A stretch of 64,000 bases of DNA from Polytrichum commune (Eukaryota; Streptophyta; Polytrichopsida; Polytrichales; Polytrichaceae): assembly GCA_950295325.1 (NCBI GenBank), contig OX485805.1:19331501-19395500 (forward strand). The letters run 5' to 3'. Shown in pieces: positions 30,201 through 62,321 of the stretch. The notes under the pieces are model-generated. The model ran no database searches. It was not told the DNA's origin and saw only the letters and a list, made by a program, of their open reading frames with translations. The position numbers and the translations under genes were made by a program. Numbering within the stretch: position 1 is the first letter of the stretch; each line of letters opens with the position of its first letter.

Positions 30201-33200
30201 GATGTTGTTGATGATTGATAAATTCAGATTTGGGATGGTTTTGTTGGATCTTTGTGACGAGTTTTACCTATCTTGTAAGTTGAGTACCATGATTTGCTGT
30301 TCCTCATCATTTAGAGCTTGTAGCCCCTCACAAAAAAAATTCCACTATCTTTCTGGGATTCAAGAGACTGATGAAAATGAACAAATTATGAAAGTTGTGG
30401 TCTTAAATTTGCTTGCATAGGTTTGTGAGGTGCAGCTCGCATGACTGTGGTTGGCATATTGGATATGCACACACAATTTTTTCAGGAGATTTGAGATCTG
30501 TTGGTATGTTACACTTGAGCAATAATTATCTGCTCCTCTTGCTATAAGCTGCCTAATTTTGTATTCAGAGAACTACTTTAAGCCTTAAGTTGTCAGTTGT
30601 GTGGTGTGGAATATTTCTGTGCAGTTATGGGTTTTTTAATGTATATTTCAGCTCTAGGCAAGGGAAGGTCAGGTAATTTCTCATTAGATATAGTTCCATG
30701 TATAGAAAATTGGTGGAAAATTGGTTGATCTATATTTGATACTAAGAGAGTTAAATACACAGGCTGGACCGTGTTTTGGGTGAAGACTACAAACAGCTCT
30801 GGTATGACCTTGACACAGCTGCTGAAGAGCGCAAAGCTTATCTTAAGCTACACCCACCACGACCCAAGCCCAAGCCTGCTCCAGTGCAAAATGAGCTGCC
30901 TTCAGTATTCATGAGTGAGGGTAATCGACGTCTTGTTGAGGACATACTTCGAGGTTCTGACATTGGTGATGATGGATCCACTAGTACATTCAATGATCAA
31001 CTCTGGTCGACAAATGAAGATTTGGAGCAGCATCTGGAAGACGACTCTGCAGATACATGGGAGGGCATGGCCGACACTGGGGTGAGTGGGCAGGAGGATG
31101 TCCATCCCCAGTCACATATTACTTTTAAGGTAAGTCTGTCCTTCAATAACAGTTTGGCATTAGTGTAGTACTCCAGAACTTTAGTTCTCCCAATAGGAGA
31201 TTTAGTGTGTAATTCAGAATTATTGTGCACCAAAGTATTTTTCAAAAAATTCATCGTAGAATTAAAGTGTACTACAGTAATTGACAAGATTCACATTCAG
31301 ATACAGAGTGAATAGGTTCATTATGAGAAGATTTCATTCACTTAAACTTGAAAATTATATTGCAGGGTGTGCCAAAGGTGTTCGGAAAAAAGAATCCTTT
31401 AAGAAAACATGCATCAGGGGCAACAACAACCAGAGAGTTGGTGGATGCATCCCCTAAAGATCGAATGCGGTCTCAGCTGGAACGATACGGATTTAAGAGT
31501 CACCATGTAAATGCAGCCCTTACTGAGCGGGATGACCTCTCAAGAGCACTTGATTGGCTGGTCCTTAATGTCCCAGAGAGTGAACTGCCTGCAAAATTTG
31601 CTGCAGAATCTTCAAAAGCTTCAGTCCAGGTGCTTGTGAGGGGGAAACAATTACCCGACAAATTTCCAGGTGGTTTTGCAGATGTGTCAAGCCAAAGTAT
31701 AGGACGCCTGCAAGAGTATGGGTATCCTGATTCTGATTGCTTGGCAGCCTTAGTTGAGACTAATGGTGATGAATCGATGGCATTGAGTAGTCTATTTAAG
31801 GCACTACTACTTGACTCTGAGAGTGGTATGAGCAAAGGTGGGGAAGATGTGTCGGTTGAGGTGATCATGGAGATGAGGAAAGAAGAAGTTGTGGCTCTCC
31901 AATCTATTTTTGAGGAGGAAGCAGTCTCCTTGTCAGAGAGCTTCATGATGTTTGAGTTGTCTTTGAGAGACGACATTGACATATCCCTGGACATGGAGGT
32001 ATGTCTGTCATGCTTTACTTGTGAAGTTACAAAACAGTCCATTGACATGTTTAAATGATGCCTTGATCTGTATGAATAATCAAGAGTCAAAAATATTTTT
32101 TGTATGGCTGGAAGCTGATTATTTTTAATGTTTTTGCAGATACGAATACCTAGTGGATGTCGTTATCCTTATGACATCCCAGTTCTTGCATTCCGGAGCA
32201 GCAAACTGCCCCCAGACTTTCTGCTAGATCTGACAAGGCAGGTTGGTGCATTTGCCCTTCAGATGGATGGACCTATGATATTTGACCTGGTTTCCACGGC
32301 AACTGAACTTGCACAGGCATTACTCATAAATTACTCAAGTTTGGATGAAGACGTGCCAAGAGACACTAGGGGTTTAGACGATTCTCATCCAGAATTTGAG
32401 GCACACTCTGACTTAGAAACCATAGATATGACAGCTCCAGGTAGTAATAATAGTCTAACAAATATCACTCAGAAAGCAAGTACCACAGTTAACGCATCAA
32501 CAACATACATACCTCCTGCATTGAGACAATCCCAGGACATTCGATCCACTAATTCCACTTCACAACAACCTGACGAAAGAGGGCGAAGGGAGCAGAGGAA
32601 CAGGCAAGGTGCAATCAGATTTTCAGGAGAACGCTCTCATACGAACAAAAATGCACTTCAAAATTCAGGAATTGAAGATTTCAAAAGAAATGATGCTGAT
32701 ATACGACTGGAGAGTGAGAGAATGAAGGAGGAGTGGGAGGATTGGCATAAGGCACATAAGCATTCAGAGCTCCGTAATATCAGGGCCAAGTTGCCGGCAT
32801 ACAAGGCACGAAGTGAGCTTCTGCGAGCAATTAACAGTTGTTGTGTTACCATTGTGTGTGGTCAAACAGGATGTGGCAAGAGTACACAGGTACATGTCAA
32901 TTTTGACTCCTCGGTCTTTCAAACTCAATTATTAAATAGCTGAAGTGAATTGATTGCCTGTGTGAGAGAGTGAACAATACTTCTTGGGGTTTCCTGTAAG
33001 CTTCTTAAAGAGTTTATTCTGATGAACAGGTACCTCAATATGTACTGGAAGATTTTATTGAAATGAACAAAGGTGGAGAGTGTAATATAATATGCACACA
33101 ACCAAGGAGGATTTCAGCCATTGGATTGGCTGATCGTGTAGCAAAGGAACGAGGCCAGGCTGTTGGTGCAACTGTGAGTTTCCTACCATTGCTCTTTTCA

Positions 33201-36200
33201 CTTAAAGATGCATGTCAGATTTGGCCTGTTGCAGAATGGCATTTCAAGGTGTTTGTCAGTTAAGTCCTCTAGTGCTGAGGATCAGAAAAACAAATAGATA
33301 TCTGGTGAAGCTTACTTAAATATGTGTGTTTTTCTTTGCTCAGGTTGGTTACTCAGTTCGCTTAGATAGTCGTCGGTCAATTCGCACAAGACTTCTTTTC
33401 TGCACAACTGGTATTTTATTGCGACGGTTATTATCAGATCCTGAGTTGATTGGTGTAAGTCACGTAATAGTTGATGAAGTTCATGAGCGCTCTCTGGAGA
33501 GCGACCTTCTCCTTCTCCTCCTTTGGCAGTTATTGCAAAGGTAGTGCATTCTGAACCTTATGTTAATGGCTCATGCAGCTCTTTACGTGTCAGACATCCC
33601 TCTAAGTGTAGCCATGTCATTTCAATGAAGTTAGCAAAGGCATAGCTGAAGCACAGGTGTGCAGTTTTAGATCTAGTCATTGAGATGATCAGCCATAGTG
33701 CAGTTATTCAAAATAAATCACGTACTGTCCTTGAGTAGAAGTTGTTTGTCTCATGTTTTGGGGCTACTTTGGTTGAGCACTTTTGATTATTTCAAGAATG
33801 TCGATGACCACAACATATGTACCCAATTAATTTCCTGTTAGGTCTGATTTGTGGTCTGTGTGATGACTGTCATGTGAAGGCCTCAGAACACTCTTCATGT
33901 GATACTGATGTCAGCAACAGTGGACTCTGGCACGTTTGCTGATTACTTCAGAAAAAATCTAGGTCACAAACCTCCTATCATGAACATCCCTGGTTTCACG
34001 TTTCCTGTTCGAGAACTGTACTTGGAGGATGCATTTGAACTTACTGGGTACAGAGTTGGGCGAAATTCACGCTACGCTCAACGTAAAAAATCAGCCCCTA
34101 CAGAAGACCACTCTGATGCAGCTGGAAGGTCTGAAAGTCATGGGATTCTCTCTCTTACAGGAGACATAGACAGCTGGGAAAATGGGTTGGATGAGCAAGA
34201 AAGCCCAGACTGTTCAGGCATAGAATCTTACAGTGAGATAACCCAACAATCTCTAAGTATTGTAGATCAGAACATTATCAATTTTGAGCTGATTGAGACA
34301 CTAGTATGTTCCATAATGCAACAGGAAGTAGATCCTTCCACAAAGTATGGGAAACTTACAGCTTCTGGTGAAGATCATGAGAGGAGAGAGGGAAAAGCTG
34401 TACCTTCTAGCAGTGGGCAAAGAGATGGAGCAGGTGCCATACTTGTCTTCCTTCCAGGTATGCTGGAGATTCGGAAGTTACAGCAGAGACTACAATCATC
34501 AAATCAGATTTCTGGTTTGGGACTAGGAGGTTTATGGGTGGTGGCCCTACATGGCTCATTATCTGGTGAGGATCAAAAGCGTGTTTTTAAGAGGCCTCCA
34601 TCAGGTGTTCGAAAGGTTGTTCTGGCAACAAATATTGCTGAGACCAGTATCACCATTGATGATGTAGTGTAAGCATCTTCTGCCTTCCATATGGGAAAAT
34701 GGTTTGTCTAGGAAGACTTAGCTGGACTGATCATACTGACTCATCATATGTAAGTCTGTACATATGACAAAAATACGTCGACCTAGATGATGGGTTGCTT
34801 TCAGTGTTGGGCTGTGATTAGTAGTTGGAAGTCTACTTAAAGGTGTCTACACTTCTTTTTCTTACAGGTATGTGATTGACACTGGGCGCCACAAGGAAAT
34901 GAGGTATGACCATAACAGAGGTCTTTCATGTCTAGAAGACACTTGGGTGTCAAAAGCAAATGCAAAACAGAGACGTGGACGTGCAGGAAGGGTTCGCCCA
35001 GGATGCTGCTTCCGGTTGTTTAGTCGACAGCAATTTCAGAAGTTCGATGATCAACAACTTCCAGAAATGTTGCGTGTCTCTCTTGAAGGCCTGTGTTTGA
35101 GGGTAAGGCTGACCTAGAAGTTGTTATTGCATATGTTGGCAGAGTCCTTTTCTTGTAGTGCCCAATAGAGGCACCCTAAATAGAGGCACCCAACATGACT
35201 TTTGGTCAGGAGTTAGTTATTTTGCACACAATACCTTCCATATTTGGTAAGTATTTGGTGCATGCATTGAGGTAGTGTGGAGGTTTGAATGAAGAACATT
35301 CTATATTGGTTCATTGAGGGTTGAACTCATTTTGGCATGCCATAAGGTGCTAAAATGAGTTTGGCACTGAGATATGTTGATCTTCATTCAAATTCAAACA
35401 CTAGTTTGAGCATGCACCACAAGAAGAAAGAAATTACTGATTTTGTAAGCAAAACAACCAATAGGAGTTAACAGAGGACCAACCTTTGACAAAAAGTTCT
35501 ATTGAGTTAAAAGGATAACTTTAATGTACTTGTGGTACTTGTTGGTAGGTTTTTATATTGTAAATAGAGAGTTTTCAACAGTTCTCCTTTGGGCTGGTTG
35601 GTTGCTGTGACAGGTGAAATCCTTACTCTCAGGAAAAGTAGAGGAAATTGTTTCCCAAATGCTCACACCACCATCTCTAGAAGCTGTTCGGACGTCGTTG
35701 AAGAGCTTGGAAGATTTGAATGCCCTCGACAAATCAGAGCGGCTGACTCCATTAGGTCAGCATTTGGCACGTATGCCAGTGGATGCACGGGTCGGAAAAA
35801 TGTTGATTTTTGGCTGCATGTTGAAGTGTCTCGACCCAATCCTCACAATTGCCGCATCGTTGAGTGGACGGTCACCGTTTATGTCCCCTATGGAGAAACG
35901 AGAAGAAGCCATGGCTGCGAGATCAAAACTCGCAGGAAACAGCAAGAGTGATCACATGGCAGTCGTTGTGGCCTACAATGGGTGGTTGAATGCAAAAACT
36001 GAAGGGTGGTCTTCAGAGAATGAGTTTTGCTCCGCAAACTTCTTGTCAAGAGAGACACTATTGGGAATTGAAGCAAGCCGAGCGGATTACCTCAAAATAC
36101 TCGTGGATTTAGGGTTTTTGTCAGGGGTTGCTGATTACAATGTTTCCACGAGCCCTGTAAATGCAAATGCAACGAGTGTGCGTGTTGTGAAGGCATTGAT

Positions 36201-36690
36201 ATGTGCAGGCTTTTACCCAAATATTGTACGAGTTCTCCACCCTGAGAAAACCTATGTTCAAACAGAAGGCGGAGCAATGGTGAAAGTTGCTGCGGCCCAC
36301 GAGCTTCGGTTTTTCTCCAAGGAAGATGGTAGGGTGTTCTTACATCCAGCAAGTGTGAATTTTCCTGTGGGTATATTTGAGAGCCCGTGGCTTGTGTTCA
36401 CGGAGAAGGTGAAAACATCAAAGGTGTTTTTAAGAGAGAGCACCATGATTCCTGCGTACGCGCTACTATTATTTGGTGGTGAAATCAAGGTGAAACATGA
36501 GCGGCAAGCTATCACAGTCGATGGGTGGCTTCAATTTGAAGCACCAGCCCGAATCGCGGTGCTCATAAGAGAACTGCGGTTGAAAGTCGACATGATTCTT
36601 TTAGATAAAATTCAGCAGCCAGCAGTAGACATCTCGTCTAGTCCAGTTGTTACTGCCCTTATTCAGCTACTCACTACTGATGGATTTTAG
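27285..36690 (+). CDS. DExH-box ATP-dependent RNA helicase (DHX57/DHX29-like, plant DExH7 type)
   Basis: Eleven exons join in frame to 1573 residues: 27285..27386, 28849..29109, 29293..29459, 30763..31129, 31366..31998, 32140..32889, 33030..33173, 33344..33540, 33880..34668, 34868..35102 and 35614..36690. Domains in order: a basic N-terminus; a C2H2-like finger (C38, C41, H54, H59); a double-strand-RNA-binding-like segment ([20 protein letters not shown] to VALHYVMGN); two UBA-like segments (about 330 and 410); an RWD domain from about 480 over the exon 5/6 join; a linker; then the helicase core with GQTGCGKST (K757), [12 protein letters not shown] (852-855), [19 protein letters not shown] and QRRGRAGR; and the C-terminal winged-helix/ratchet/OB part. 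UBA plus RWD plus DEAH marks the DHX57/DHX29 branch, linked in animals to translation initiation. The exon 9 acceptor (GTGAAG|G) was set by phase. All motifs are intact, so it looks functional. Confidence 0.92.
29641..29734. repeat. Near-perfect 94-nt hairpin in helicase intron 3
   Basis: The 38-base left arm starting CAAAGATCAAACCAATGAAC pairs with the right arm ending GGTTTGATCTTTG over 34 of 38 positions, with one small internal mismatch block and an 18-nt loop. The fold is symmetric for both strands. It could be a miniature transposon or a microRNA-like precursor. Confidence 0.75.
35258..35423. mobile_element. Small MITE in helicase intron 10
   Basis: TTGGTGCATGCATTGAGGTA... and, about 120 bp on, the complement of GGTGCATGCTCAAACTAGTG form inverted ends. 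Inside them the pair GTTTGAATGAAG / CTTCATTCAAA continues the symmetry. No coding content. Confidence 0.55.
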
Positions 36691-41476: not shown

Positions 41477-43035
41477 GAAAAGAAAAGAAAAGATAACGCC
41501 CGTGTTATGCATACCGGCGTGAATGTGAGCCCGTTAACCCTATATTGATCTCGAGAATCCGAGATGCAATATTGGGTGTTATGCCTCCTGTGGGAGGTGG
41601 GCTCTGGTGTAGTGCAAGATAGTTTCCACCTTATGGTGGTAAGATAGGGTTTTGTTTGTTGTCAAGTTTCCTTTTATTTAAGACCAAATAGGTAAGGTAT
41701 TTAATGGCATTTTGGTGTATGTTTTTCATGAGGGTTTTGATGTGGGATTTGGGGATTTTCAGGTTGGTTAATTGTTCGATGGAGTTTTCGTGTATAGCAC
41801 CTCTTACTCCTGCGGTGATAGTAATGAGGGGGTTGGTATTCCATCCGTTAGCTCTTAGTGTGGTAATTAGCGGGTCATATTTGTTGTGTTTGTGTGTGCG
41901 GGCTTGTTCAGGGAATCTATCGTGGCAGTAGGTGAATTCAATGAATTGTACGGTGTGGCTTGGGGAGGGTAGTATTGGAGTTTGCGTTTGGTTGGGATCT
42001 CCGATAATGCACATTTTGTATGGTCTTAATTTGGCTTGACAATGACATGGTGCTTGTGTGCATATACATTGGAGGAGCCAGTCGGGAATTGTTTGGTCTT
42101 GGGGTTGGTTTGGTAAGTTGCCCGCATTGGTCAAGGTGAAGAACCTGGTGTTTTTATTGGCTTGTAGGGTTTGGGCAATGAGGTGGGTTGCTTTATTGTG
42201 TCTTGCGATTCGTAGGCCTTTTAGGTATGGGTGTTCGCATGTGGATAGTAGGTGTGGCCATGTGTCTCTATCATTGGTGCGACATAGTGTGCAGTTGGGG
42301 TTTTGGTATTTAAGGGGCCAGAATATATTTTTCCTATGGTTACCCATGTATTGGGCATATCTAAATTTTAGAGTTTGGGTAATTTGTGTGTCGGGTATTT
42401 TATCATGTTTCCAAAAATGGTTGGAGAGTTTTTGATTGATTTCTTCATTCGAGAGCCATTTGGCAACGTATGGGAATTTTTGTTTGGCTAGTGAAGTTTC
42501 TCGATTTTCGTGATCTTTCATTATGAATGTGTGGAGGTTGCGGATGGCTCCATCATGTGTAGCCGTGGGGGAGGTTGCTAGCCAGTAGGGGGTAGCGTGT
42601 GCTACGTGTATGTGTGGCGTGTTTTCCGGTTTGTCTTTGAGTGTCCCTTCGTTGGCTAGTGCATCCGCCATTTCATTGCCTCTAATTCCCGTGTGTGCGT
42701 GTACTTTGTGTATGTGTATCATGTGTGGGGTCCAATATATTTGGTGAACGATGGCTGCGATGAGTAATTTATCAGGGTGGTGGTGTTGAGATGTTGGGTG
42801 TTGGATGTGGTTGTTTATTAGGTAGATGCTGTTGAGGCCGTCTGTGAATATATGTGTGTCTATTTGGGTGGTTTGTATACTTTTTATGGCTATAAGTATG
42901 GCATTGAGCTCGGCTCTTAGAATATTGGGATATCCCGGTAATCTTTCGGCTATTTGGGTATTGTTGTTGGGACTGTATACCCCTGAGCCCGCGATATTGC
43001 CGACTATTTGTCCCTCGGAATTTTTGGAAGGTGGG
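41477..43035 (-). mobile_element. LINE copy 2, 5'-truncated, inserted in gypsy pol
   Basis: 1559 bp between the two 103-bp copies. In minus orientation it starts inside the RNase H domain and ends with about 150 bp of 3' sequence and a (TTTTC)n tail at 41477-41496. It has all LINE insertion hallmarks: 5' truncation, short-repeat tail and a target duplication. Confidence 0.85.
41631..43035 (-). pseudogene. LINE ORF2 end: RNase H and zinc-binding C-terminal domain
   Basis: Minus strand. 43035-42722 gives the RNase H core in one or two frames (LRAELNAILIAIKSI, THIFTDGLNSIYLINN). 42722-41631 is open for 363 codons from VHAHTGIRGNEMADALANEG, through CTLCRTNDRDTWPHLLSTC (CxxC...HxxxxC) and WLLQCICTQAPCHC, to the IEFTYCHDRF block. 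It is homologous to 21400-22456 with clear divergence. Reverse transcriptase is missing through 5' truncation. Confidence 0.8.
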
Positions 43036-43138
43036 ATTCATAAGCAATCACCTTGCCTTCTTGCATCAAGATAACACCTACAACCATATCATTGGCATTT
43101 GTGCACAAGACCAATGTGCCTTGCAAGCGATCAATAAA
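43036..43138. repeat. 103-bp target-site duplication, right copy
   Basis: Second copy of 41374-41476, one mismatch. It lies at the 5' (truncated) side of the LINE. Confidence 0.9.
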
Positions 43139-47537: not shown

Positions 47538-47547
47538 GAGTTTAGTT
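47538..47547. repeat. 10-bp target-site duplication of the Mutator-like element, left
   Basis: GAGTTTAGTT, repeated exactly at 55065-55074. A 9-11 bp duplication is the Mutator superfamily signature. Confidence 0.75.
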
Positions 47548-47563
47548 GAGGGAAGCTATCTTA

Positions 47564-47636
47564 TGAGCGATGAGCAGTGAGCGGTGAGCGGTGAGCAGTA
47601 ACACATGAGCAATGAGCAATAATATATGAGCAATGA
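47564..47636. repeat. TGAGCRR minisatellite near the left end
   Basis: About eight 7-bp units of TGAGC(G/A)(A/G) type, two of them followed by spacers (AACACA, TAATATA). Inverted counterparts lie near the right end of the element. Confidence 0.8.
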
Positions 47637-47756
47637 ATCCAAATTTAGTAAAGACACACGGGTTTAGGGTACACAACCATAATTTTGACAAATTAATTGC
47701 ATATTTTCAATTGTAAATTGCCAATATTTTATATGAAGCACACGTGAAAGGGCCCT

Positions 47757-48526
47757 ATTACCATGGATCATTTAAAACACTTTCAATCTATTGCTGATTT
47801 TTATTATAATAATCCAAACCAATACATGTTATTTATTGATATCCTTATACATGTAGTTACAACCAACACTTGCACAACTACTCACATTCCACAACACCAG
47901 CAAGTTCAAGTAGGTGCATAACTTCATTATATGTATATGTAGGTGCCATAATTGTGAGCCACTCAAACCGCTCATGGGTTGAGTTAAGGCCCACAATCTA
48001 CAAAAGCAAGGAAATTAGATATTAGAAATAGTCAATATGTAGGTAGCTACTAGGTTTTGAGACATCCGCATGTGGATGCAAGTTGTATAAGAGACTAGTA
48101 TTAGGTCTGGATCAACCCGGGTTCGAATCCGGTTGGTTACATTGACTGGTGCTATCCCAAATCGAGCTAGTGATAAAGTAAGAATAATCTATAGGCGGAT
48201 ACCAAGAAGAGGATACTACGCGGATGTGCATAGAATCTTCTCGATTATTTGTTATTTTTAGAAACTTGTTATTATTTATCCGTGTGAATCAATCAAACCG
48301 TTCACGGTTGGGTCATAGTCTAAATGGAAATGAAGTTACTGAATCATTTGAAATACTTTCAGTCCATTGTTAATTTTTATTATAATAATCCAAACCAAAA
48401 CATGTCATTTATTGACATTCAATTATATGTTGCTTAATAGAACACTTGCAATACTACACACATTCTACAATACCAGCAAGTTCAAGTAGTCGCATGACCT
48501 CATTATATGTATATGTAGGTGCATGA
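47757..48526. repeat. Duplicated 3' end of the transposase gene with an inserted spacer
   Basis: About 195 bp at 47757-47950 recur at 48333-48526 (TTTTTATTATAATAATCC, ACCAGCAAGTTCAAGTAG, TTATATGTATATGTAGGTGC). The right copy is the real end of the transposase frame, including its stop at 48454. Short blocks at 47953-47995 and 48280-48325 (CAAACCG(C/T)TCA) face the spacer from both sides. Confidence 0.7.
48060..48270 (+). repeat. Possible tRNA-derived SINE
   Basis: GGGTTCGAATCC at about 48118 is a perfect RNA polymerase III B-box, and a loose A-box-like stretch lies about 45 bp upstream. It sits in the spacer between the two duplicated transposase ends. No cloverleaf can be drawn, so it is not a tRNA gene. 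Confidence 0.35.
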
Positions 48527-50775
48527 ATGAATTTGTCACTCTCGTAGTCTACCTTGCACAAAAATCTAAACACATAATAAAGATGTTTACAATACACCCA
48601 TTTTCCTTTCTTTTCCAATGCATGAGAGGACATTTTCGTGAAATCCGGGCATGTGCAATGTAGGATGTCGCCAATTATGACATGGTAGGTGATATCCTGC
48701 TTGGAGACAATGCTGATTATCACTCCAAAGCCCGGATATAGAATGGCAGTGACCCCAACCACATAATAACCTTCCATGAGTCTAGCGCTCTCCCATTTAT
48801 TTTTGTGATCCGCCAGCGGTATTGTTGGATTATGACGCACTGTCTTCCCAAACCTGAATGTAGGGTGCGCGTTCAAATTTGGTGGCATACAAAAATGCGA
48901 GCGAGGGATGGGGAGAATTGCGATTGTTGAAAGCCTATGACGAGGGAACAATGTCTCCCTCTGCTATAGTTGAAATCCAACATCTTCAAGTGCCAAAACT
49001 TCCTCTCTCGATAGATTGGTATCTATCTTCACCGGCCACGTGTTGGGTACTATAGGCCAATCCAACACATATTTCTTCTTACTGCCACTCACACAACGCT
49101 TGATGTCGTCAGGGCAAAACCAAAATTCATACTCCATATTGTTGGGAGAGCGAAATTCCTTCCTGAGCCCTTTGTATGTTGGAGCAGGTGTGCCATGTTT
49201 CCCAGTCCTGACTTTGGCATTGCACATAGTCCATGTAATGGCTTGCAGTGCCCAACATCGTTTGGCTGAGTTGGGTGGCAATCTTGCAATATGCCACTTA
49301 GAAGCAAGACAATCAGTCTCTAACACGGATGTAGTATGAGTCACACCATGAATTGCAGAACTCAACGATTCCTCTATGCGTTGACGAGTTGCTCGGGTGT
49401 TGGGACGAGGAATGGAATAGTTCACTTTGTCGGATCGATGAGAGTCACAATCAACACCCGGTGGTAGGTTGACTTTGCGTTTGGTGGAACCAAAAAGCTC
49501 TGACCCTTCCAATGCACAATCTCTAGTGTTAATGTTTTTTGCCCCTGAATAAGACTTCATGGCATCAGCCAACATTTTTGGATCTCCACACCTGGCAACC
49601 GCTTTAAGTTTCAAGGATGCCGAATCAGGACATTTACCATCAGATCTCCCTTTCAACTATGTCCGGTAATTTACAATTTGCATGAAGGCACGAATCATGT
49701 CGTCCACTGTAGCTTCATATAAATAAGTCATCTTATTGCGGATTGTTGGAGCCATTTGTTGTGAAAGTCTCTGCAAGATTGCATATTGGCATTTTCGCAC
49801 GTTCTTCTATTGTCATATTCTATGGACAACACACAAATATGAGGATAAGAAAAATATAAGATATATATAACAATGGAAGAAAAATGAATGACATTGAATA
49901 ATGAATTTTGATATGTACGTACAAATAGCATATGACTACCCCATTGTCTTTGACGAAAGTGTCAAAAACCCAACCACTCTGAAAGGCCAAGGATGCCTTC
50001 TTCTGAGGCAGCTCCGGATGACAACTACCAACAACGAATCACATGATATTTAGTCTCGGCGTCGTTCATTGTTTTTGCGTCTTTGTAATCCTTGCATATT
50101 TGCTTGTGTTAAAACTGCAAGGATGGTTTGATATACTTTTGGGTCACCTTATCCAAACTCGCAAACCAATGGAAAAGACATGTACGCTCACGTGCAACCA
50201 TGGGTAGACTTGGGTCACCATCCCCATAAATCGTCCTCACCTCATTCCAATTAATTTGAGCACTATCAACCATAAACCGTTTGAAATTTACGTTTGGTAC
50301 ACTATTTTTTGCCATGACAGAATTCAAATTCTACCAAAAGAAAATTTGTGTTGCACCATCTTCAGATTGCATGTCACAACACGCAATGGTTAACACTTTA
50401 CAATATCGATTGTCGTACACATGACAAGTCATTGTCGTCCAGTGTTTCAAACGTTTAACATGATCAAACATAATTCATGAATTCTTCATATCCCCCCGAC
50501 TTGCATCTTCTTCACAAGTTCCACACCACTACTTGGAAGGTTTACAGACATGTTGAAAACAAACACTTTATCTTTTGATTGCCCTGGGAACCGACTACCA
50601 TGAACGAACTTAAAAGCAGAGTGGTTTTTAAGTGCCATAATACTATCCATAGGTCCCATTCCACTATGCAAAAAACGCTTTGAATACTATATTGTGCATG
50701 CCGAGAGTACGATTCCAACGGTATATAGCATGAACAAAATGATTTTGTTTTGCATGTTTTAGAGCCAAAAAACAA
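48454..50775 (-). pseudogene. MULE-type transposase with SWIM zinc finger
   Basis: Minus strand, several frames. 50327-50109 encodes FKRFMVDSAQINWNEVRTIY and RERTCLFHWFASLDKVTQKY, part of the MULE transposase core. 50671-50486 holds N-terminal text (KKMQVGG). 49656-48964 is an open C-terminal region of unknown role. 48951-48454 ends with the SWIM finger: CTCPDF...WVYCKHLYYVFRFL (CxC...CxH). In-frame stops (for example a TAG just upstream of 50327) and intron-like gaps break it. SWIM fingers are usual in Mutator transposases. The degree of decay is moderate, as most blocks remain readable. Confidence 0.7.
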
Positions 50776-51031
50776 TTAGAGCATCTTAGATTCTTCTAAA
50801 ATCTTCAAAAAATGAAGATTTTATGAAGGAAATCTAACCATATTAATTTCAGTAGACTTTAACGATTTATGTAAAATTGATATCATCTCCAAATATTCTG
50901 AAATTTTTTGAAGTAAATGGCAAGGCTATAATCTATGCACTTGATTTTTTGTGGAAATAAATTAGAATATTTGAAAAAGTTATAGCTCAAATAAAAAACA
51001 ACTCAAATCAAGGTGCATTTCTCTTCTAAAT

Positions 51032-51591
51032 GGGTAGCCGTTAACGGCCACCCTTTCTATAATGCCAATTTTTGTGTTCTAGTTTAGGACGGCCGTCAAC
51101 GGCCACCCTTTGTATGATGCTATCTTCTCTGTTCTAGTTTAGGACAGCCGTTAACGACCACCCTTCTTGGGTTTCATTCTTCATTTAATAACATAATTTC
51201 TTTGAAATAAAATCACATATATACATATATTTCTTATGTCAGTTCCATCTAAAAGTGTGGTCGTTAACGGCCATCCTTGGTTGCATCTCATATTTTTCAG
51301 TATATGTGTTTCTTTCTTCATGTATACACCCATTTCCGTCATTTTTTGTCCTTCAACAAGGGTAGCCGTTAACGGCCACCTTTATTGAAATTTCATATTC
51401 TTTTCTATATATGTTTATTTCTTCATATATACACTCATTTCTTTCATTTTTTTTCTTTCAACAAGGGTGGCCATTAACGACCACCGTTATTGAAATTTCA
51501 GATTATTTTCTATATGTGTTTATTTCTTCATTTATACATTCATTTTCATAATGTTTTATCCTCCAACAAGGATGGCCGTTAACGGCCATCC
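51032..51591. repeat. Array of seven GGCCGTTAACGGCC palindromes
   Basis: About 22-bp palindromes centred on GTTAAC start near 51032, 51088, 51142, 51255, 51360, 51465 and 51570, so the spacing is 56, 54, 113, 105, 105 and 105 bp. The last is a perfect 22-bp palindrome; the others have one to three changes. The last three units carry the shared tail TTATTGAAATTTCA and a CAACAAGG lead, forming 105-bp tandem repeats. The array lies between the divergent transposase and methyltransferase-like genes. Confidence 0.9.
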
Positions 51592-51763
51592 TTATTGAAA
51601 TTTCAAATTCTTTTGCATATGTTGTTTTCCCTTATGTATACTCTCACTTTCATAAATATTTTTGCATATTATTTTAGTTTGCATATGTGATTTCTTTCAT
51701 ATGTATATATTTATTTTAATTTGTTCTTGTATTTTATATGGGTGATATTTTTGTGCTTTAGAT

Positions 51764-54232
51764 ATGGAAGTTGTACATCTTTCTGAAGATCAATTGGAGT
51801 TGCGATTGCATGCATTTTTCAAGAAAGAAACTGTCAACACATCTTCCCGTCTTGAACGGTTGAGGTATCAACCAAGGATGAGAATCCTGAGATGATTCAA
51901 AAAAAACTTTGGATGTTAGCAATTTTGGCAATGAATACATCTATGAAGATTAGGTGGCTTGAGAGATGAAACAGTTTACCTTCTCTTCGTGAGGCTCTCA
52001 AGTTTCCGAAACCAAAATTCAATAATATAAAGTTTTCTAAGTGGCTTCATAAAGCTACTTGGTGGGCTCAAGTGATAATTTTTTGTCTATGTTTTTTATT
52101 TTATTTTAACATTTTTTTAATCATTCAATTTTTCTAATCTTTATTTTGTATTTGGCAGTTGGCTATTGAGACCGAGAAGCTCTTTGATGCTACTGTGGCT
52201 GATATGCATGTGTCCATTAAGTATCTTCCAGATGGTATGGATCCTTTGCCCACTATTTTTTATTATGTGGAGGCAATGCGCATATCATTGTGGGATACTT
52301 CATTTTTTCATGAATTCAGTGTAGATAAGGAAGTTCATAAAAATCATAACATTGACACACAACTCAATTTCAATCCATCCATGCGAAGGGTGTTTTATAG
52401 GTACTTCAAATATGTTCTATTTCCTGCTAAAGCCATTTCCAAATTTCCCACTTTTTTGGATAATTATTTGGATATCGAAAGTGAAGAATTCATGTTCAGA
52501 GAGGGGATCATGAAATCTTCGGATCCTATGCATTTTAAAAATGTAGGTGGTATTTGGATTTTCTTCTTAAATCACCTCTCACTTTTGATATTGCCCTTTG
52601 AGTTTCTATTCAACCCGCCCTCAAGGGTGCAACTAAAATTGCTCCCTTCATAATGGATGAGGATATAGCCAAGATGCCAAAAAAAAGTCTAAGCCTAAAA
52701 GACCAATCCTCTTAATTCATGATAGCGATGACGATGCTCCAATTTAAAGTAGTCTCAACAACCTTGTAGTTACTGAACCTTCTTTTTCAAATCTAGAAGC
52801 AATGTTTCATACTTGAAAGCGGCTGAAAAAAACCCCTTCTCCTACCTTCAATATGCCTCCCAAGCTTAGAGGTATGATGGATATCTTGCCTTCTTTACTT
52901 GCAAATCATACATTTTCGGATTTAATCTTGAATGATTCTTTTGTGAGGATTATCGAGGATAAGAAGCAAACATGTACATTTTGTGCACCATATCACGACA
53001 TTGTGGTTTATTTCGTGCACCAAAGGTGAGTTCATTTTATTTTATAGTTTTTAATTTATTTCATGTTTTATAAAGTTTCATTTATGTTTTATCACCTTAT
53101 TTCATTGTTTGCTTTTAATTGTCGTCTTCATTAATGAATTGTAATATTTATATTTTATCTTTGTAGGTTGGTGAAGGTAGATAATTTTTTTTTTATGGCC
53201 AATTGCAAAAGAAACCTGTTGTGGACCTCATTATTGCAGATTACCCAGATGGTCTTCGGGTTCCAAGAGTCTCGGATCCGCCATCTCAAATTCTCCCTTG
53301 GAATGCCAACATTCCAAGTTTTCTCAACATATTGATGGCATTTGGTCTTACCTATCTTCATGATGATGGAACATTTTTTTGTAGGATTCTTCAAGAACTA
53401 TAAGTTCAAGATCAAGGATGAGTGGATTATCATTAATTGCTTGCACTTGGCAAATCTTATGAATCCGTCCAAAAATGTAAGTAGCAATTATAGCTTTGAA
53501 GTTCAAGGCTTTGTTATTGGTTCGATCATTTTTTATTTCCCATTGCGAGGCAACCTCAAGAACTTCTGATGACTATGGATCCTTCAATCTAGAGGTTGAT
53601 TTAGCCACAGATGACGTTCTCTTCAACTCTATTACTACGGAAACTCAATTATGTAGACAAAGAGATGGCAAGCCATGGAGGGGTGCAAAGGAGAAGTCTG
53701 AAGTTTTAATGAAGTTATTTGTTCATGGTTTCAGTCATGTAGGCGGTATTGTGGCAGACATGACTGCTTCTATATGTATTGTATTTTACAGTATCCAATT
53801 ATTAGTTCATATGTTTTTTAATTCATACTTCAATGTTCGTATTTTCCTTATTAATATTGTGCTTCATCCCGGTTCTTCTATTAGAGCGGCTCATTCATCC
53901 AATCGTCATATTCTAGCATTAGAAAGTGATGCCGAACTCTTTGATGAGGTACTAAAGCCTCTTCAAATACCTACAACTGATATCTCAAACGATGGTATGG
54001 ACTTTGATGATGATACTCCAATAGAAAACGCCGCACTACTTATCTTATACGAGTGAGTATTTTCCTTGTTTTTTTTTCAACAACTTCAGTTACAAATTCT
54101 AGATTTTGTATTCAAATTTGTTGTTACATATTCTAATACATGGTTTGTTGTTTGCAGTTGGATGATTCCATCGCCGATACAAACCTCGTCATTTTATCGG
54201 CACCGTGGATTATTGAGAAGCCCCTCTCTTAG
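51764..54232 (+). pseudogene. Beta-class DNA N4/N6 amino-methyltransferase-like gene, multi-exon, decayed
   Basis: Plus strand. It starts ATG at 51764 (MEVVHLSEDQLELRLHAFF). Exons seem to lie at 51764-51895, 51990-52070, 52159-52555, 52860-53025, 53200-53400, 53480-53760, 53878-54052 and 54158-54232. The catalytic part reads KKPVVDLIIADYPDGLRVPR, resembling motif IV (DPPY), here D-Y-P-D. Much later come LVHGFSHVGGIVADMTAS and SSIRAAHSSNRHILALESDA, resembling the SAM-binding motif I region and its acidic strand end. Motif IV before motif I is the beta-class order. The N-terminal 250 residues are unrecognised. Frameshifts and the altered DPPY motif suggest it is inactive. The alternative is an unrelated transposon protein. 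Confidence 0.5.
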
Positions 54233-55064
54233 TCCTCATAGCCTCCCTGTGTATGCTGAGGCTTTAGCTGAAGCTTATGCTAATGCTTCATCTATTTCAT
54301 CTTCAATTTCACCTTCACCTCGTACATATTACGATACTAGAGTATGTGCTAATTTTGAACTCAGTGCATCTGAGTCTGTCGATATTTAAGTTTATATCCA
54401 TGATTTGATTTTTGATTTTTGATATTTGATTTCCAAGAACTTCAACAATTTAAACCTACTACCCGATTTATATTTATAATCCACTTTTGTTGTTCTTTAT
54501 GTTTTGGACTTCGTAAATGTCACCCTCATGATGGTGTTATGATGTATTCAAATTTTACATTGATGTGTATTCTAGTGAGACATTCTAACATGCTACACTT
54601 GTTTTCAACATGAGTTTGCTTATACATTGTCTCCAATTACATTATTATTATCTCAACAGTTGAATGTATATTAGTTCATCTTTAGTACAAAATTGTTATA
54701 GCAACATTCTCATTTGTTGTTCACTTGGACTATAGACCCTTACATGTAATTCCATAGTCATAGGCCCCCAACCGATTTACAAACCATAACCGGGAAAAAA
54801 TTGAAGGCTCACAGGTTCATGCTCACATGCTCACATACTAGCAACCCCGAGTCGTGTACATATTGGTTTTTTTCATTGCTCACTACTTGCAATCTAGCAT
54901 TCATATTGTTTGTCCTCCCCAATCTTCTTATTATTGAATCCTAAAAAATTATTTCTTTAGGCCACGGTTATAGGACACTAGGGGTCCTATTACCAAATAT
55001 TTTGTTTTCTTCACCGCTCAAAAATTACCACTCATCGCTCACTGCTCACAAGATAGCACTCCCT

Positions 55065-55074
55065 GAGTTTAGTT
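55065..55074. repeat. 10-bp target-site duplication of the Mutator-like element, right
   Basis: GAGTTTAGTT, identical to 47538-47547. Confidence 0.75.
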
Positions 55075-55918: not shown

Positions 55919-56263
55919 TGCAAGTAGAATGTTATTCACAAGTATCTGTGAGATTAACTCTGCACTGTAATGAGAATTTTATTATCCTCAATTCAAACAC
56001 CTTACAGAACTTCTACCTCTAGATGTTCCTATGCGTGGTGGATCTTATACATAGCCATATCTAGACTTAGCCTATCTGATACATTGTGCACACAAAAGAT
56101 AAACTATTGTATTCCTATTTCTGTATATAAAGAATTGCTTCTATCAATCTGTCTAGATGCTTCGGCACTAGAATGTTCTACATGAATTCTACCTTGTTGG
56201 AATACTACGTTTCTAGAATGTTCATTAGTAGGATGAATGTAACTGGATGAACGTATACATCCA
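55919..56263 (-). repeat. Copia 3' LTR
   Basis: 345 bp, TGCAAGTAGAATG...TATACATCCA in plus reading. It matches 61565-61910 with changes at about 55965 (1-bp indel), 56026-56029 (two substitutions) and 56196 (one substitution). Confidence 0.9.
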
Positions 56264-56912
56264 GTACTCCCACTCGTTCATCGAGTTACAGTGATGATGT
56301 AAACCCTAACCCTAGGTTAAAATCTAACTATTAGGTTCCTCCTAAAATCTACAAATACTGAGATAGATCTACATGTTGTCCTAGTAATATCAATCTTCAC
56401 ATTCTAACTAATGATGGTGAATATCTTTCTATCCTAATCTCTAACCCTAGCCTGAATGATGACGACGCATGGTAACCCTAGCCTAAATGATGACGACGCA
56501 TGGTGCTCACGTTCGCGTTGCTTTCTTTGTGCGCTTTTTCACCTTTTGGCGACGGCGTGATGATCCTCTGATGTTTCGTCGTGAAGTTCTCCTTCAACCA
56601 TTCTCTTCTGCTCTTTCTTCACTCTTGTGTACATCTATTTAGTATATATCTGCTTCCTTTTTGGCATCGTCACTTTGTCAGAGTGCTTCCTCTCTTATCT
56701 TGCGAGTGAGCTGTTCTTTTCCTGTCTTCTTTCCTATCTTGTTCATATCTTTCTTCTGCTCATATGTGCAAGTATCAACTCCCTCTCTTATCCTGTGAGC
56801 GAGCTATCTCTTTTCCAAATCTTGTTTATCTAAAGCTAGAAGTTTTCTTGGTACTCACTATACAAATCATTGCAATGTCTTTCTAATCCTTCTGTTGTCC
56901 TATCCTGCTTCA

Positions 56913-59900
56913 TCACACCTTATGTCGTGTTACCTTGTTGTTATCGCTCTGACTCCGTTGTGTTTCTGTCTTCTGTGTTTGTTGTGTTACCTTGTTGTTA
57001 TCGCTCTGACTCCGTTGTGCTTCTGTCTTCTGTGTTTGTTGTGTTACCTTGTTGTTATCGCTCTGACTCCGTTGTGCTTCTGTCTTCTGTGTTCGTTGGT
57101 CTTCTGCGAGGACGTTATCACTCAATCTCCCACTTGTTCGAGAAGGAGGAGCAACGAGGCCGTGAAGATGGCGGAGATGCTGAAAAGCATCTTTGGTAAG
57201 CGCTTTGGTGAGAATATCTGCGAGTTGTTGCTTGGTGTTGACATAAGAAACTGTAATTTCCTGTTGATCGTATTTTTCATGAATAAGATAATATTTAGTT
57301 TCAATGTGCTTGGTTCGCTTGTGATACCTGGGATTTTTGACAAGTTGAATGGCGCCTTGGTTGTCAGATAGGATCTGTGTAGGTTGAGAAGAAGGAAATC
57401 CCAGGTTGTGGAGAAGGCGTCGTAGCTAGATGGCTTCCTTCACGGATTCAGCCATAGCAACGAACTCAGCTTCAGTTGTAGAATCTGCAGTGCAGCCCTG
57501 ACGCTTACTACACCACGCAATAGCACCATTTGCGAGGAGAAACAAATACCCTGTTCGAGACTTACGATCATCGTGGTCACCTGCGTAGTCCGCATCACAA
57601 TACCCCTGGAGAATAAGATCTGGTGTAGAACCATAGTAAGAAAGACCCATGTCTTGTGTACCGCAAAGATAACGAAAAATTCGCTTGACTGTAGTCCAGT
57701 GAGATTGGCGAGGCTTGCTGGTATATTTCGCAACCCTACTGACGGCATAAGCAATGTCAGGCCGGGTGAGAACCATGGCATACATTAGGCAGCCAACGGC
57801 TTCCCTGTAAGGTATGGAAGGTGGGAGGAGAGTATCATCAGGTCCTAATGACTCCTGAAGAGGTACGTGAGTGTCTGCTGGAGTAGAAATAGGATTTGCA
57901 TTTTCAAGTTGAAAACGATGAAGGATGTCGGAAATATATCTGGTTTGATTGATAAAAATGGTGTGAGTTTGTATGTCACGATGAACTTGAAATCCCACAT
58001 AATAATCCATAGGACCATGGGTTACTTTAAACATGTTGGCGAGATGTTGGATAACAACATCGAGGTCTTGTGCATTAGTAACGCACACAATGCCATCGTC
58101 CACGAAAATCCCAACAATAAGATGAACAGATTTAGAAGTTGTTGGTCGATAATAAACACATGAATCAACATCACTTGTTAACAAGTTATAGAGCTTCAGG
58201 AAAGAATCAAAGGTATGATTCCAGAGTCGACCTGATTGTTTGAGCCCGTATAAACTCTTAAGAAGTAAACAAACATGTTTTGGAAGTTTGAGATTGATAA
58301 AACCTTCAGGTTGACGCATATAGATGCGTGTGGTGAGGTCGTTGTCGAGGTAAGCAGTACCAATATCAAATTGACGCATATGCATGCGTAGGACAGCTAC
58401 AATTGCAAATATCACCCTGATGGAGTCGTGTTTGATAACCGGACTAAACGTTTCTGTATAGTCGATGCCATGAACTTGGCTGTAACCTTTTGCGACGAGT
58501 CTGGCTTTGTACTTATCAACAACACCAGTGGAGGTGTATTTGATTTTGTACACCCATTTACATTGAACAATATTTCGACCAGGAGGAGGAGGAACTAAAA
58601 TCCAGGTATGATTGTCCATCAATGAATTGTATTCCCTGTTCATTGCCTCCTTCCATAGTTGAGCTTGAGGTGACATGGTGGCCTGTTGATATGTTACAGG
58701 TTCACGGTAAGACTCAGCGGATGAAATCATATTCGCAAATGATGAAGTCGATGAGACCGAAGGAGCATCAGATTGAGGAGGATCTTAATACAAATCGGTA
58801 AGACTTTTGAACTTTGGTTGAAGAGGTTCATCAGTTGGAATCGGGGTAGAATAAGGAATGTTAAAATCATAGGGATCAGAATGGGGAGAAGAAGGGATAG
58901 ATGGATCTGGAGAAATTGGTAGTGAAGAATGAGATGAGGTGAGAGAAGCCTCATCGAGATGAGGGACTGAGACAGATGAATCCGAAACTCCCACTGGTTC
59001 TGTTATTTCTTCTCCCACTGGATCAATGACGGGGTCTCCCACTGGAGGTATAGGTAAAGGAAGAGGAGTAGAAGAAGGAAAGTTAGAATGAAAGTAGAGA
59101 TGAGCGGGTATACTGACAGAGGATGTCTGTGTAGAGGTAAAAGAAGAATAACCAGTGTGTTCGTCAAAAATAACATCCGAACTCTCAGCTATCTTATCAG
59201 TAGAAGGGTTCCAGAAGCGCCATCCTTTGCTTGTATCGTTGTAGCCAATGAAAATAACCTTATGACCTTTAGCTTGAAATTTTGTGCGTAATGACTTGTC
59301 AATGAAGATGTATGCAATAGTACCGAAGATACGGTAATGAGATACACCGGGTTTAGTGTGAAACCATAATTCATATGGTGTGGTGAAGCCGACTTGAGTG
59401 TTGATGGTCCTGTTGAGGAGATATACGGCAGTATGAATGGCTTCTGCCCAGAGCTTCAGAGGAATGTTGTGATAATGAAGCATGCTGCGGGCGGCTTCAC
59501 ACAGGGTGCGATTATCGCACTCAATATAACCAATCTGCTGCGGTGTATAAGGTGTACTAGTTTCGCGTAGAATTCCTTCACGCTCAAGAAGTAAGTTGAA
59601 ATCATCATTGCAAAACTCTGTACCCCGATCTGTGCGAAGAACTTTGACATGATTTCCTGTTGTGCGTTCAATATAACGGATAATTTTGTTGAAGAACCGA
59701 AGAGCATCATTCTTTGCTTTAAGAAACGCAACAAACCTGTATGAGGTACAGTAATCTTTGATCAGCATGTAGTAAGATGCCCCTCCTAAAGACAGTTGTG
59801 ACATCTTCCCGCAAAGATCGGCATGTAGAATCTCTCCATGTATGTCAGATCTCTCCTTCAGTGGTCGTGAGGCATATGATGCTTTATGTTGTTTGCCGAG

Positions 59901-61498
59901 AGCGCATCCTTGGCAAATAGAAAGTAGTTTACCATGAAATGATATGGTAAAGTCTTGTAAACTGTTGTGTGTACTCATCTGTTTGAGAACGTGAATATTG
60001 ACATGCCCCATCTTGATATGCCAGAGTGTGAGGTCTGTATCAGATTTATTTGTAACAACAAGAGCGGTGGATAACTCATGTTGTTCTGTATTCGGTGGTG
60101 GTACAGGATCGATGGAGAGTTTGTATAACGTCCCGGATCGAGTTCCTTCCATGACTTTGGGACCCTTGCCGAGGTCTTGATAGATAACACACATGTCACC
60201 AAGGGTTTGAAAGGATAACCCTGATTTAGATGCAAGACCAATTGAGAAGAGGTTTCGCCTTAATTCAGGTATGTATAACACTCGTTTGAGTATTCCTTTC
60301 TTTGTTGTTCCATCAACACGCCTTGTGATATGAATGTCTCCAAGTCCTCGCACCCAGAGATTATGATCATCAGCAACAGACACGGACCAAGTACCTGAGG
60401 GTATTCCTTGAATGTTGTGAACCAATCTCTGTGTTCGGTCATATGCTCTATAGCTCCTGAATCAGCAAACCAGGCCGTCTTGTCTAAATTAACACTTAAT
60501 GCCTGTGAATGACGACTTACTGTCATGAATGCACAAGACTCGGTATCTGATTCTGAAGGATGAGGACTACAGTCAGAAGTAGTTTGCTCGGTTGCTACAC
60601 ACACTTCACTTCGTTTGTTGTTGCTATCTCTGTGTGATCGTTTCTGATGATTCGAATGCTTGACCCGGTTTTGTCGTGGTCGAGGACACTCGGCAGTCCA
60701 GTGATATGGTCCTCCACAGTTGAAACATCGTGTACGACTCTTCAGATCTCAGATGCAATCTGTGTTGTGTTCGTGTTGTGGTTTCTTGCCTTTCGTGGTC
60801 GATCTGTTGGACTGGTCATTGTACCGGTCATTGGAGCGGTCATGAGATCGATTATTGCTGAAGCGGCCATTGCTGGAGCGAGTGAAGAATGCCGCATCGC
60901 CATTGTTTTCAGCACTCTGTAGTGCTAGGACACTTTCCAACTGAAGCAGCCTAACCTTGAGTTTAGCGACAGTTTGGTCCTGAACGTCAAGATTTGCCCA
61001 TGATGTTATGATGTTGTTGTAGCTGGCTGGAAGACTACAAATAATTTTGGTGATCAACATTTTCTCAATAAATAGTTCTCCCATTTCTTTGAGTAAGTTC
61101 CCCATACTCATTATCTTGTTTACATGTGTATTGATGGAATCGCCTGCATGCATCTTGTAATTGAAGAAAGTACTCTGAAGTAGGTAAATATTCTCGCTAG
61201 ACTTCTGTTGGTAGAACGAACAAAGTGTTGCCCACATGCAGGCAGCAGTAGTACAATTGACTAAGTTTTCAAGAACTGGAAGAGATACTAAAGAACTTAT
61301 CATCCTTTTTGCTCGTGAGTCTGTTTTTTCCCAGGCGAGTTGCTCTTCTTCGGTAGCGGTCTCTGGTGGCTTTGGAAGGGTGTTGTTGACAACCGGCATA
61401 GTACCTGTGTCTCCGAAGCAGATTTCCATTTGAAATCGCCAGACGGGAAACTTTTCTCCATCAAAAACCTTGCGGGGCTTGAAATCTCGCTTATCCAT
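56913..61498 (-). pseudogene. Copia gag-pol polyprotein with three stops and one frameshift
   Basis: Minus strand. The gag starts ATG at 61498 and runs 249 codons to a TGA at 60749, just upstream of the zinc knuckle CFNCGGPYHWTAEC. The same frame continues through the protease (WFADSG) and shifts frame at about 60405. Integrase follows (zinc-binding H/C block, HADLCG, RTDRGTEF, a PTP-like block) to a TAA at 58785. The same frame resumes into RT (QFDIGTAYLD, FVDD at about 58095) and RNase H (DADYAGDHDD, STTEAEF) to a TAG at 57426. It then runs on, still open, to 56913 with a tail of three 19-residue repeats. All catalytic motifs remain readable, so only a few point changes disable it. Confidence 0.88.
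56927..57097. repeat. 57-bp tandem repeat, three copies
   Basis: Three nearly identical 57-bp units (GTGTTACCTTGTTGTTATCG ...), a multiple of three. In the copia pol frame (minus) each unit encodes 19 residues of the QRSQSDNNKVTQQTQKTE type. Confidence 0.92.
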
Positions 61499-61564
61499 TG
61501 GAGCGAATCAGATTGAAGCATAGAATTGCATAATTAATCTAGTGGTAGTGGGCCCATAACCTAA

Positions 61565-61910
61565 TGCAAGTAGAATGTTATTCACAAGTATCTGTGAGAT
61601 TAACTCTGCACTGTAATGAGAAATTTTATTATCCTCAATTCAAACACCTTACAGAACTTCTACCTCTAGATGTTCCTACGCCTGGTGGATCTTATACATA
61701 GCCATATCTAGACTTAGCCTATCTGATACATTGTGCACACAAAAGATAAACTATTGTATTCCTATTTCTGTATATAAAGAATTGCTTCTATCAATCTGTC
61801 TAGATGCTTCGGCACTAGAATGTTCTACATGAATTCTACCTTGCTGGAATACTACGTTTCTAGAATGTTCATTAGTAGGATGAATGTAACTGGATGAACG
61901 TATACATCCA
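61565..61910 (-). repeat. Copia 5' LTR
   Basis: 346 bp, partner of 55919-56263. On the minus strand it is followed by TTAGGTTATGGGCCCACTAC, where the primer-binding site would lie, then by the gag start at 61498. Confidence 0.9.
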
Positions 61911-62321
61911 ATATTTTGTCCTTCCAAATGCGAAAACCTTTGGAATTTCTTCCAATTCCCAGGGTTTTTTTCACTATTATTATCTCTACAAGAGACAACA
62001 AAAGAAGATTTCTTCTTTTTTGGCTAACTCAACATTTTTAGCCTCAAATGTTAAGGCCATGTTATAGGCCTTTCCGAGCATATATTAAGGCTTCAAAGCC
62101 TTGACATCATATTTGATAGAACTATGAAGACCCTTAACAAAGAAGATAAAGTTGTCTTTGTCATATAAATTTGGGAAATATTCAACCAATTTGTGGAACC
62201 TATCTTTGTACACTTGAATTGTCAACGCACCTTGTCTAAGGTCTTTCAAGCATTCTTTCATATTTTGAATATGATCATGTGATAAAGAATGTTCTAAAAA
62301 AAACTTCATAAATTTGACCAT
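61911..62321 (-). pseudogene. Gypsy gag fragment
   Basis: 62321-62085 encodes MKFFLEHSLSHDHIQNMKEC and LRQGALTIQVYKDRFHKLVEYFP, a retrotransposon gag domain. It is truncated downstream by the copia insertion at 61910. Confidence 0.7.

Follow-up and report, generated by a model that had tools for sequence, protein, structure and literature searches.

A Mutator-like element family of Polytrichum commune with a putatively methyltransferase-derived second gene and an array of GTTAAC-centred palindromes

The VANC protein of Arabidopsis is described as binding tandem arrays of short motifs in the noncoding DNA of VANDAL elements and inducing the loss of silencing marks (PMC10398659). Target duplications of Mutator-like elements (MULEs) are given as 8–11 bp (PMC6446971), and the second genes reported for these elements include PMD, Ulp1 and others, as well as SET in elements of Phytophthora (PMC6446971, PMC13317346). 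Among retrotransposons, DIRS elements carry Dam-like adenine methyltransferases (PMC3266345) and dinoflagellate and charophyte elements carry 5-methylcytosine (5mC) methyltransferases (PMC5890265); the latter source refers as well to 5mC methyltransferases in DNA transposons of marine viruses. Retroelements with modification enzymes and Arabidopsis Mutator-type elements with anti-silencing genes are thus already known, and searches of open-access full texts, outside which most subscription journals lie, turned up no title or abstract that combines a modification enzyme with anti-silencing in a DNA transposon. Here we describe a unit at positions 47548–55064 of a 64,000-nucleotide stretch of the Polytrichum commune genome (the window; contig OX485805.1, positions 19,331,501 to 19,395,500), in which two divergent genes, one for a transposase and a second called the cargo gene, flank an array of palindromes, and in which the cargo protein appears to derive from an amino-methyltransferase.

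The unit shares with VANDAL elements, as these are described, a Mutator-type organization, an additional gene and short motifs in tandem array within noncoding DNA; VANDAL ends are described as degenerate, however, whereas those of the present element are clear (PMC10398659). The extra protein also differs from VANC in its putative methyltransferase ancestry. A SWIM-bearing transposase (the SWIM match being weak in the present family), duplications of 8–11 bp and a second gene, often antisense, are likewise described for MULEs with accessory genes (PMC6446971, PMC13317346), but the word “methyltransferase” is absent from the main text of both sources, and the present transposase matched no Pfam MULE domain. 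Like the DIRS, dinoflagellate and charophyte retrotransposons, the unit is a mobile element with a putative DNA-modification domain; unlike them, it is a DNA transposon whose PF01555-type domain of beta order is encoded by a separate gene. The order of motifs in this domain (IV...X-I-II) and its similarity to PF01555 and PHROG profiles recall the beta-class amino-methyltransferases (CcrM, YhdJ, phage families) and the eukaryotic N4CMT (PMC8885841), from which it is set apart by a rewritten catalytic tetrapeptide, a long N-terminal region, introns and its location in a transposon.

The unit is a decayed copy of a DNA transposon from a multicopy family, an anatomy (transposase gene, divergent second gene and, between them, a GTTAAC palindrome array of variable number) in which we place very high confidence (Table 1). 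An initial annotation of the window, made from its sequence, had proposed inverted ends, an exact flanking duplication of 10 bp and two divergent genes, and each of these was borne out. The duplication GAGTTTAGTT is identical on both sides and the genes lie on opposite strands. The terminal inverted repeats are imperfect and give way to TGAGCR heptads; when the first 40 bp of each end are aligned, 31 of 41 columns are identical, for a score of 19 that was reached by none of 2000 shuffles and none of 5000 random window pairs (maximum 8 in each). Both genes of the window copy are disrupted by stops and frameshifts. By blastn, the element has no further copy elsewhere in the window, where only short matches of 23–29 bases were returned. 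The cargo gene was also considered as a nested second element, and this was rejected: its flanks share only two 10-mer inverted matches, so that it forms no obvious separate insertion.

Table 1. Features of the element in the window (strand shown where assigned)
Feature	Position	Strand	Basis or remark
Left target duplication	47538..47547	.	GAGTTTAGTT; exact match with 55065-55074
Left end	47548..47636	.	Inverted repeat GAGGGAAGCTATCTTATGAGC, then TGAGCR heptads; 31/41 columns identical to right end
Transposase gene, broken	48457..50683	-	110 relatives at E≤0.001; tblastn; stops and frame changes
SWIM-like CxC...CxH stretch of transposase	48568..48687	-	PF04434 E=0.21 in the window; CxC...CxH visible in alignment
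Seven palindromes close to GGTGGCCGTTAACGGCCACC	51033..51590	.	Up to 4 mismatches per palindrome; absent from the rest of the window
Cargo gene, broken	51764..54389	+	Read across introns, frameshifts and stops; exon path backed by relatives
Conserved N-terminal region of cargo gene	51865..52617	+	P0001 (E=1.1e-63), P0022, P0026; no Pfam family
Motif IV position, VDLIIADYPDG	53221..53253	+	Read in the window cargo gene
Motifs X (WRGAKEK), I (IVADMTAS, intron, GSSIRAA) and II (NRHILALESD)	53676..53930	+	Profile matches
Right end	55011..55064	.	Inverted repeat of left end; also in 15/20 fetched copies
Right target duplication	55065..55074	.	Exact match with 47538-47547

A search of the P. commune genome (407.8 Mb in 64 contigs) with a 581-base stretch of the cargo gene yielded 140 candidates, including at least 40 scored cargo matches, that of the window among them. 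Twenty of the 39 other scored matches were examined as 10-kb stretches, three of which were extended. Since these copies were chosen with a cargo probe, the cargo gene is present in them by construction, which is not so for the transposase, the ends or the arrays. The initial annotation had taken the joint occurrence of both genes and these ends in relatives as one measure of its proposal, and the proposal stands up to it. A transposase gene and a cargo gene, divergently oriented, are both present in 18 of the 20 copies; in the other two (L036 and L038) at most 270 bases separate the palindromes from the edge of the sequence examined. The right end could be recognized in 15 copies and the left end in four, plus two of the three that were extended. 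Both ends are present in four copies, with lengths of 7.9, 9.3, 12.5 and 12.3 kb and duplications of 11, 11, 10 and 9 bp.

In both copies of about 12 kb, the transposase can be aligned to a relative of 734 residues, P0041, starting at residue 1 of the latter. The window transposase aligns to this relative from residue 442 onward only (tblastn), and hence lacks the first ~440 residues in addition to carrying stops. Terminal inverted repeats are absent in some MULEs, and a C-terminal SWIM domain or zinc finger is common, though not universal. Among 22 C-terminal transposase relatives, ten match PF04434 (SWIM), the best at E=0.0078 and all below the Pfam cut-off wherever a cut-off is shown. PF00872 (Transposase_mut) is matched by two of 33 full-length relatives (best 0.034), PF10551 is not among the matches at E≤1 in the Pfam scan of these 33, and a search for a PDB relative of the transposase found none. 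The duplications of 9–11 bp in the window and the four copies, together with the inverted ends, fit Mutator-like elements. The earlier designation of a MULE with a SWIM transposase is thus supported by duplication and ends, but the SWIM match is weak, and we call the element Mutator-like rather than file it firmly as a MULE because the transposase matched no Pfam MULE domain in the 33 full-length relatives.

At the 3′ end of the transposase gene, 183 bp of sequence occur twice (47764–47946 and 48340–48522, 83% identical), and the piece between the two copies, which contains a tRNA-type B-box-like GGTTCGAATCC, is by eye perhaps a short interspersed nuclear element. The loci L020, L023 and L037 likewise show the duplicated tail close to their left end, indicating that the duplication predates the insertion in the window.

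The palindrome array, of which the initial annotation made no mention, lies between the 5′ ends of the two genes and is the top-scoring tandem array of the window, with seven units there. Three shuffled windows together gave one match, at a looser threshold of ≤5 mismatches. A GTTAAC-centred array is found upstream of the cargo gene in all 20 fetched copies, with 5–46 units (≤4 mismatches), and neighbouring palindromes mostly lie ~105 bp apart. Observed CpG relative to expectation stands at 0.93 within the array, compared with 0.63 for the element and 0.51 for the whole window, which is a weak hint only. The arrays of L036 and L038 comprise 44 and 46 units over ~4.7–4.8 kb, and those of the other 18 copies 5–16 units.

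The N-terminal region of the cargo protein has one relative, P0001, in the whole-protein search, and matched no Pfam family. P0022 and P0026 connect this region with the linker that follows, and P0019 and P0025 connect the linker with motif IV, from which it follows that the cargo is a single gene. A query of 288 residues that includes the domain matched 25 diverse proteins from other sequence sources (E≤10), the weakest at 9.4e-12. No relative was found in five scans of viral contigs or in prokaryote genome contigs, where a plant element would hardly be expected; these blanks therefore indicate little more than the lack of a recent viral or bacterial source in the collections scanned. In L028 and L033 an open frame (RKFYEKYPD...WTSS.VDEFVSKVVERVRL) lies upstream of the assumed cargo start, at ~6176–6450 of the oriented stretch, and the cargo gene probably begins earlier in other copies than placed in the window.

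The C-terminal domain of the cargo protein very probably descends from N6/N4 amino-methyltransferases of beta order, to judge from profile comparisons. The initial annotation had looked to profile searches to decide the matter, and PF01555 and PHROG profiles do match relatives of the cargo protein. PF01555 is the top Pfam match in three of four relatives from which introns were cut by hand (E=9.9e-5, 0.0048 and 0.0043) and is absent in the fourth; it was found in two of 20 uncut relatives (best 0.03). PHROG family 3008 (DNA methyltransferase) matches the joined sequence of the window at 1.4e-4 and is matched by 6 of 13 members, the best at 1e-5. Among NCBIfam models the matches are weak, with CcrM in four of 13 members (best 0.071) and citryl-CoA lyase in two (0.06), while two further models for methyltransferases each matched a single member (0.054 and 0.085). 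When the family was aligned by hhalign with a profile built from Escherichia coli YhdJ and nine phage methyltransferases, motifs X-I-II gave 92% and a score of 52, compared with at most 26 for 100 column shuffles and 17 for the reversed alignment. In hmmsearch, the scores of nine of 13 sequences, that of the window included, exceed all 200 residue shuffles; of the four that fail, three are too short to reach motif X and the fourth breaks off at motif I. In P0011, hmmsearch places motif IV before X-I, the beta order, with weak scores.

The motifs quoted by the initial annotation, DLIIADYPDG and VADMTAS, are present where it had placed them; in the window, WRGAKEK starts at 53676, IVADMTAS at 53748, GSSIRAAHS at 53871 and NRHILALESD at 53901. 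Its proposal of an S-adenosylmethionine (SAM)-binding motif I agrees with the forms DLTASTG, DLTAGTG and DMTASTG in the relatives, the last letters of which vary in the copies. Pattern searches, in which the patterns predetermine part of what they match, found motif I in 15, motif X in 12 and motif II in 17 of the 20 genomic copies. The DPPY-like label for motif IV does not hold, since the family has [D/E/N]-Y-P-[D/N]-G instead. Among the window sequence and ten relatives, 11 sequences in all, six begin the motif with E, four with D and one with N; Y and G are invariant, and P (L in the remaining sequence) and the D at the fourth place are each found in ten. Motif IV was recovered by pattern in 16 of the 20 genomic copies, as DYPDG in 15 and DYPYG in one; the four copies that the pattern missed may carry a mutated motif or have it in another frame. 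The DPPY-type tetrapeptide is the catalytic motif of amino-methyltransferases. The SAM site thus looks kept and the catalytic site looks rewritten, and because [D/N/S]PP[Y/F/W] is absent in all 11 sequences the domain is here called methyltransferase-derived rather than a methyltransferase. Of the beta-class methyltransferase first proposed, the permuted order is supported by profiles and shuffles, and the enzyme itself gives way to this weaker name.

Past constraint on the cargo gene is likely, whereas none is shown for its catalytic half. A simple Nei-Gojobori count was made on non-independent pairs, with many dead copies included and with the copies grouped by identity into old and young. 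It gives the N-terminal exon a ratio of nonsynonymous to synonymous substitution (dN/dS) of 0.44 for old-young pairs, 0.59 within the old group and 0.88 within the young group. For the transposase it is 0.26 (old-young) and 0.78 (young) in the first part and 0.64 (old) in the last part. Divergence across the two groups is 0.046–0.083 for exons and 0.073–0.133 for introns, the exons lying below three of the four introns, and exon indels are about one third as frequent as intron indels.

We suggest that the cargo protein may be an element-encoded regulator that would bind the palindrome array in the regulatory region common to both genes. Base modification, or binding alone, would then keep the promoters of the element accessible or tune them, in the manner of VANC. 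We give even chances to the proposal that the protein acts through the array, and the whole explanation, which unites anatomy, ancestry and a regulator acting on the array, falls somewhat short of this. That the protein truly methylates bases is doubtful, given the rewriting of motif IV.

Several observations weigh against this explanation. DPPY, SPPY or NPPY was found in no sequence examined, so that catalysis is doubtful and the protein may methylate nothing. All PF01555 matches lie below the curated cut-off of Pfam. The substitution counts also tell against it, with a dN/dS of 1.17–2.79 up to motif I and, among old copies, three of the four introns (0.045–0.053) less diverged than most exons. 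The Pfam search of the conceptual exons, which the initial annotation had put forward as a check, gave no match for the joined cargo protein of the window (E≤10), and the broken frames scanned singly gave no methyltransferase match; relatives were thus required for detection. Searches of the PDB with the joined protein and with the family profile gave no methyltransferase, and the IV-V half alone scores 21 in hhalign, with one of 100 shuffles higher. The AlphaFold model of P0011, a sequence with intron read-through and a stop near motif I, has a pLDDT (predicted local distance difference test) of 37.4 and was not used. If, as these blanks and the low-confidence model could suggest, the domain were unrelated to methyltransferases and its motifs had arisen by chance, the two unrelated families that outscore PF01555 in uncut relatives, in one member each, would be no surprise; yet the Pfam and PHROG profiles concur, with E-values near 1e-4 to 1e-5 (the NCBIfam matches being weak, at 0.054–0.085), the motif order is correct and the scores are not reproduced by shuffles, and we consider a chance resemblance very improbable. 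At the other extreme, the protein could be an active self-marking enzyme, methylating adenine or cytosine on the copies that encode it, such as within their palindromes, so as to block 5mC silencing or guide the transposase. The retained motif I and beta order, and the existence of retrotransposons with methyltransferases (PMC5890265, PMC3266345), are consistent with such an enzyme, but [D/E/N]-Y-P-[D/N] replaces [D/N/S]-P-P-[Y/F/W] in all 11 readable sequences outside the fetched copies, and a change of SPPY to APPA is reported to abolish the activity of bdelloid N4CMT (PMC8885841), which makes an active enzyme unlikely.

Relatives of only 35–60% identity share this replacement, as YP[DN]G, which would suit a pseudo-enzyme: a domain no longer catalytic, whose only role would be to bind DNA or a partner, such as by bringing the transposase or factors of the host to the array. 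The apparent retention of the SAM-binding motif tells against such a loss, and we regard a pseudo-enzyme as a substantial possibility that stays below an even chance. It is improbable, in our view, that the cargo is a host or foreign gene caught once and carried along without use, in the style of Pack-MULEs. Stops or frame breaks in most of the fetched copies could be read in this way, as could a dN/dS near or above 1 up to motif I, where a segment of 70 codons gives 1.17, 1.19 and 2.79 (old-young, old and young), and the value for the N-terminal exon among young copies. A useless passenger would sit poorly, however, with the retention of both genes in nearly all copies (the cargo by probe construction, the transposase not), with a cargo gene that has introns of its own, with the old-young dN/dS of its N-terminal exon, and with the 25 diverse relatives in other sequence sources.

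Directly to the right of the element, positions 55975–61913 hold what by eye is a copia-type long terminal repeat retrotransposon, a recent insertion with two repeats of 292 nucleotides that are 99% identical and long minus-strand open frames at 57426–61507; a 57-bp tandem repeat (3.1 copies, 97%) lies in an open frame within this interval, at 56923–57098. Elsewhere in the window, two related long frames, at 21353–22456 (+) and 41631–43037 (-), resemble by eye the RNase H and C-terminal parts of long interspersed nuclear elements, and open frames at 31327–36690 (+) resemble exons of a DEAH-box RNA helicase gene.

The unit is real and unusual, and self-marking by it is a hypothesis that the array has sharpened. 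In its furthest form, which we hold to be rather unlikely, this would be a Mutator-type family with a sequence-addressed epigenetic device, in which a methyltransferase-derived protein with a new D/E-Y-P-D motif marks or occupies the GTTAAC array, possibly by a modification other than 5mC, and so shields the element from silencing. Were this the case, the family would be a DNA-transposon counterpart of VANC made from an amino-methyltransferase. If the protein does mark or bind the array, the units can be counted copy by copy, and the family would allow a specific test of how silencing is evaded by transposons in plants; otherwise the conservation of a rewritten methyltransferase motif throughout the family would still pose a puzzle in enzyme evolution.

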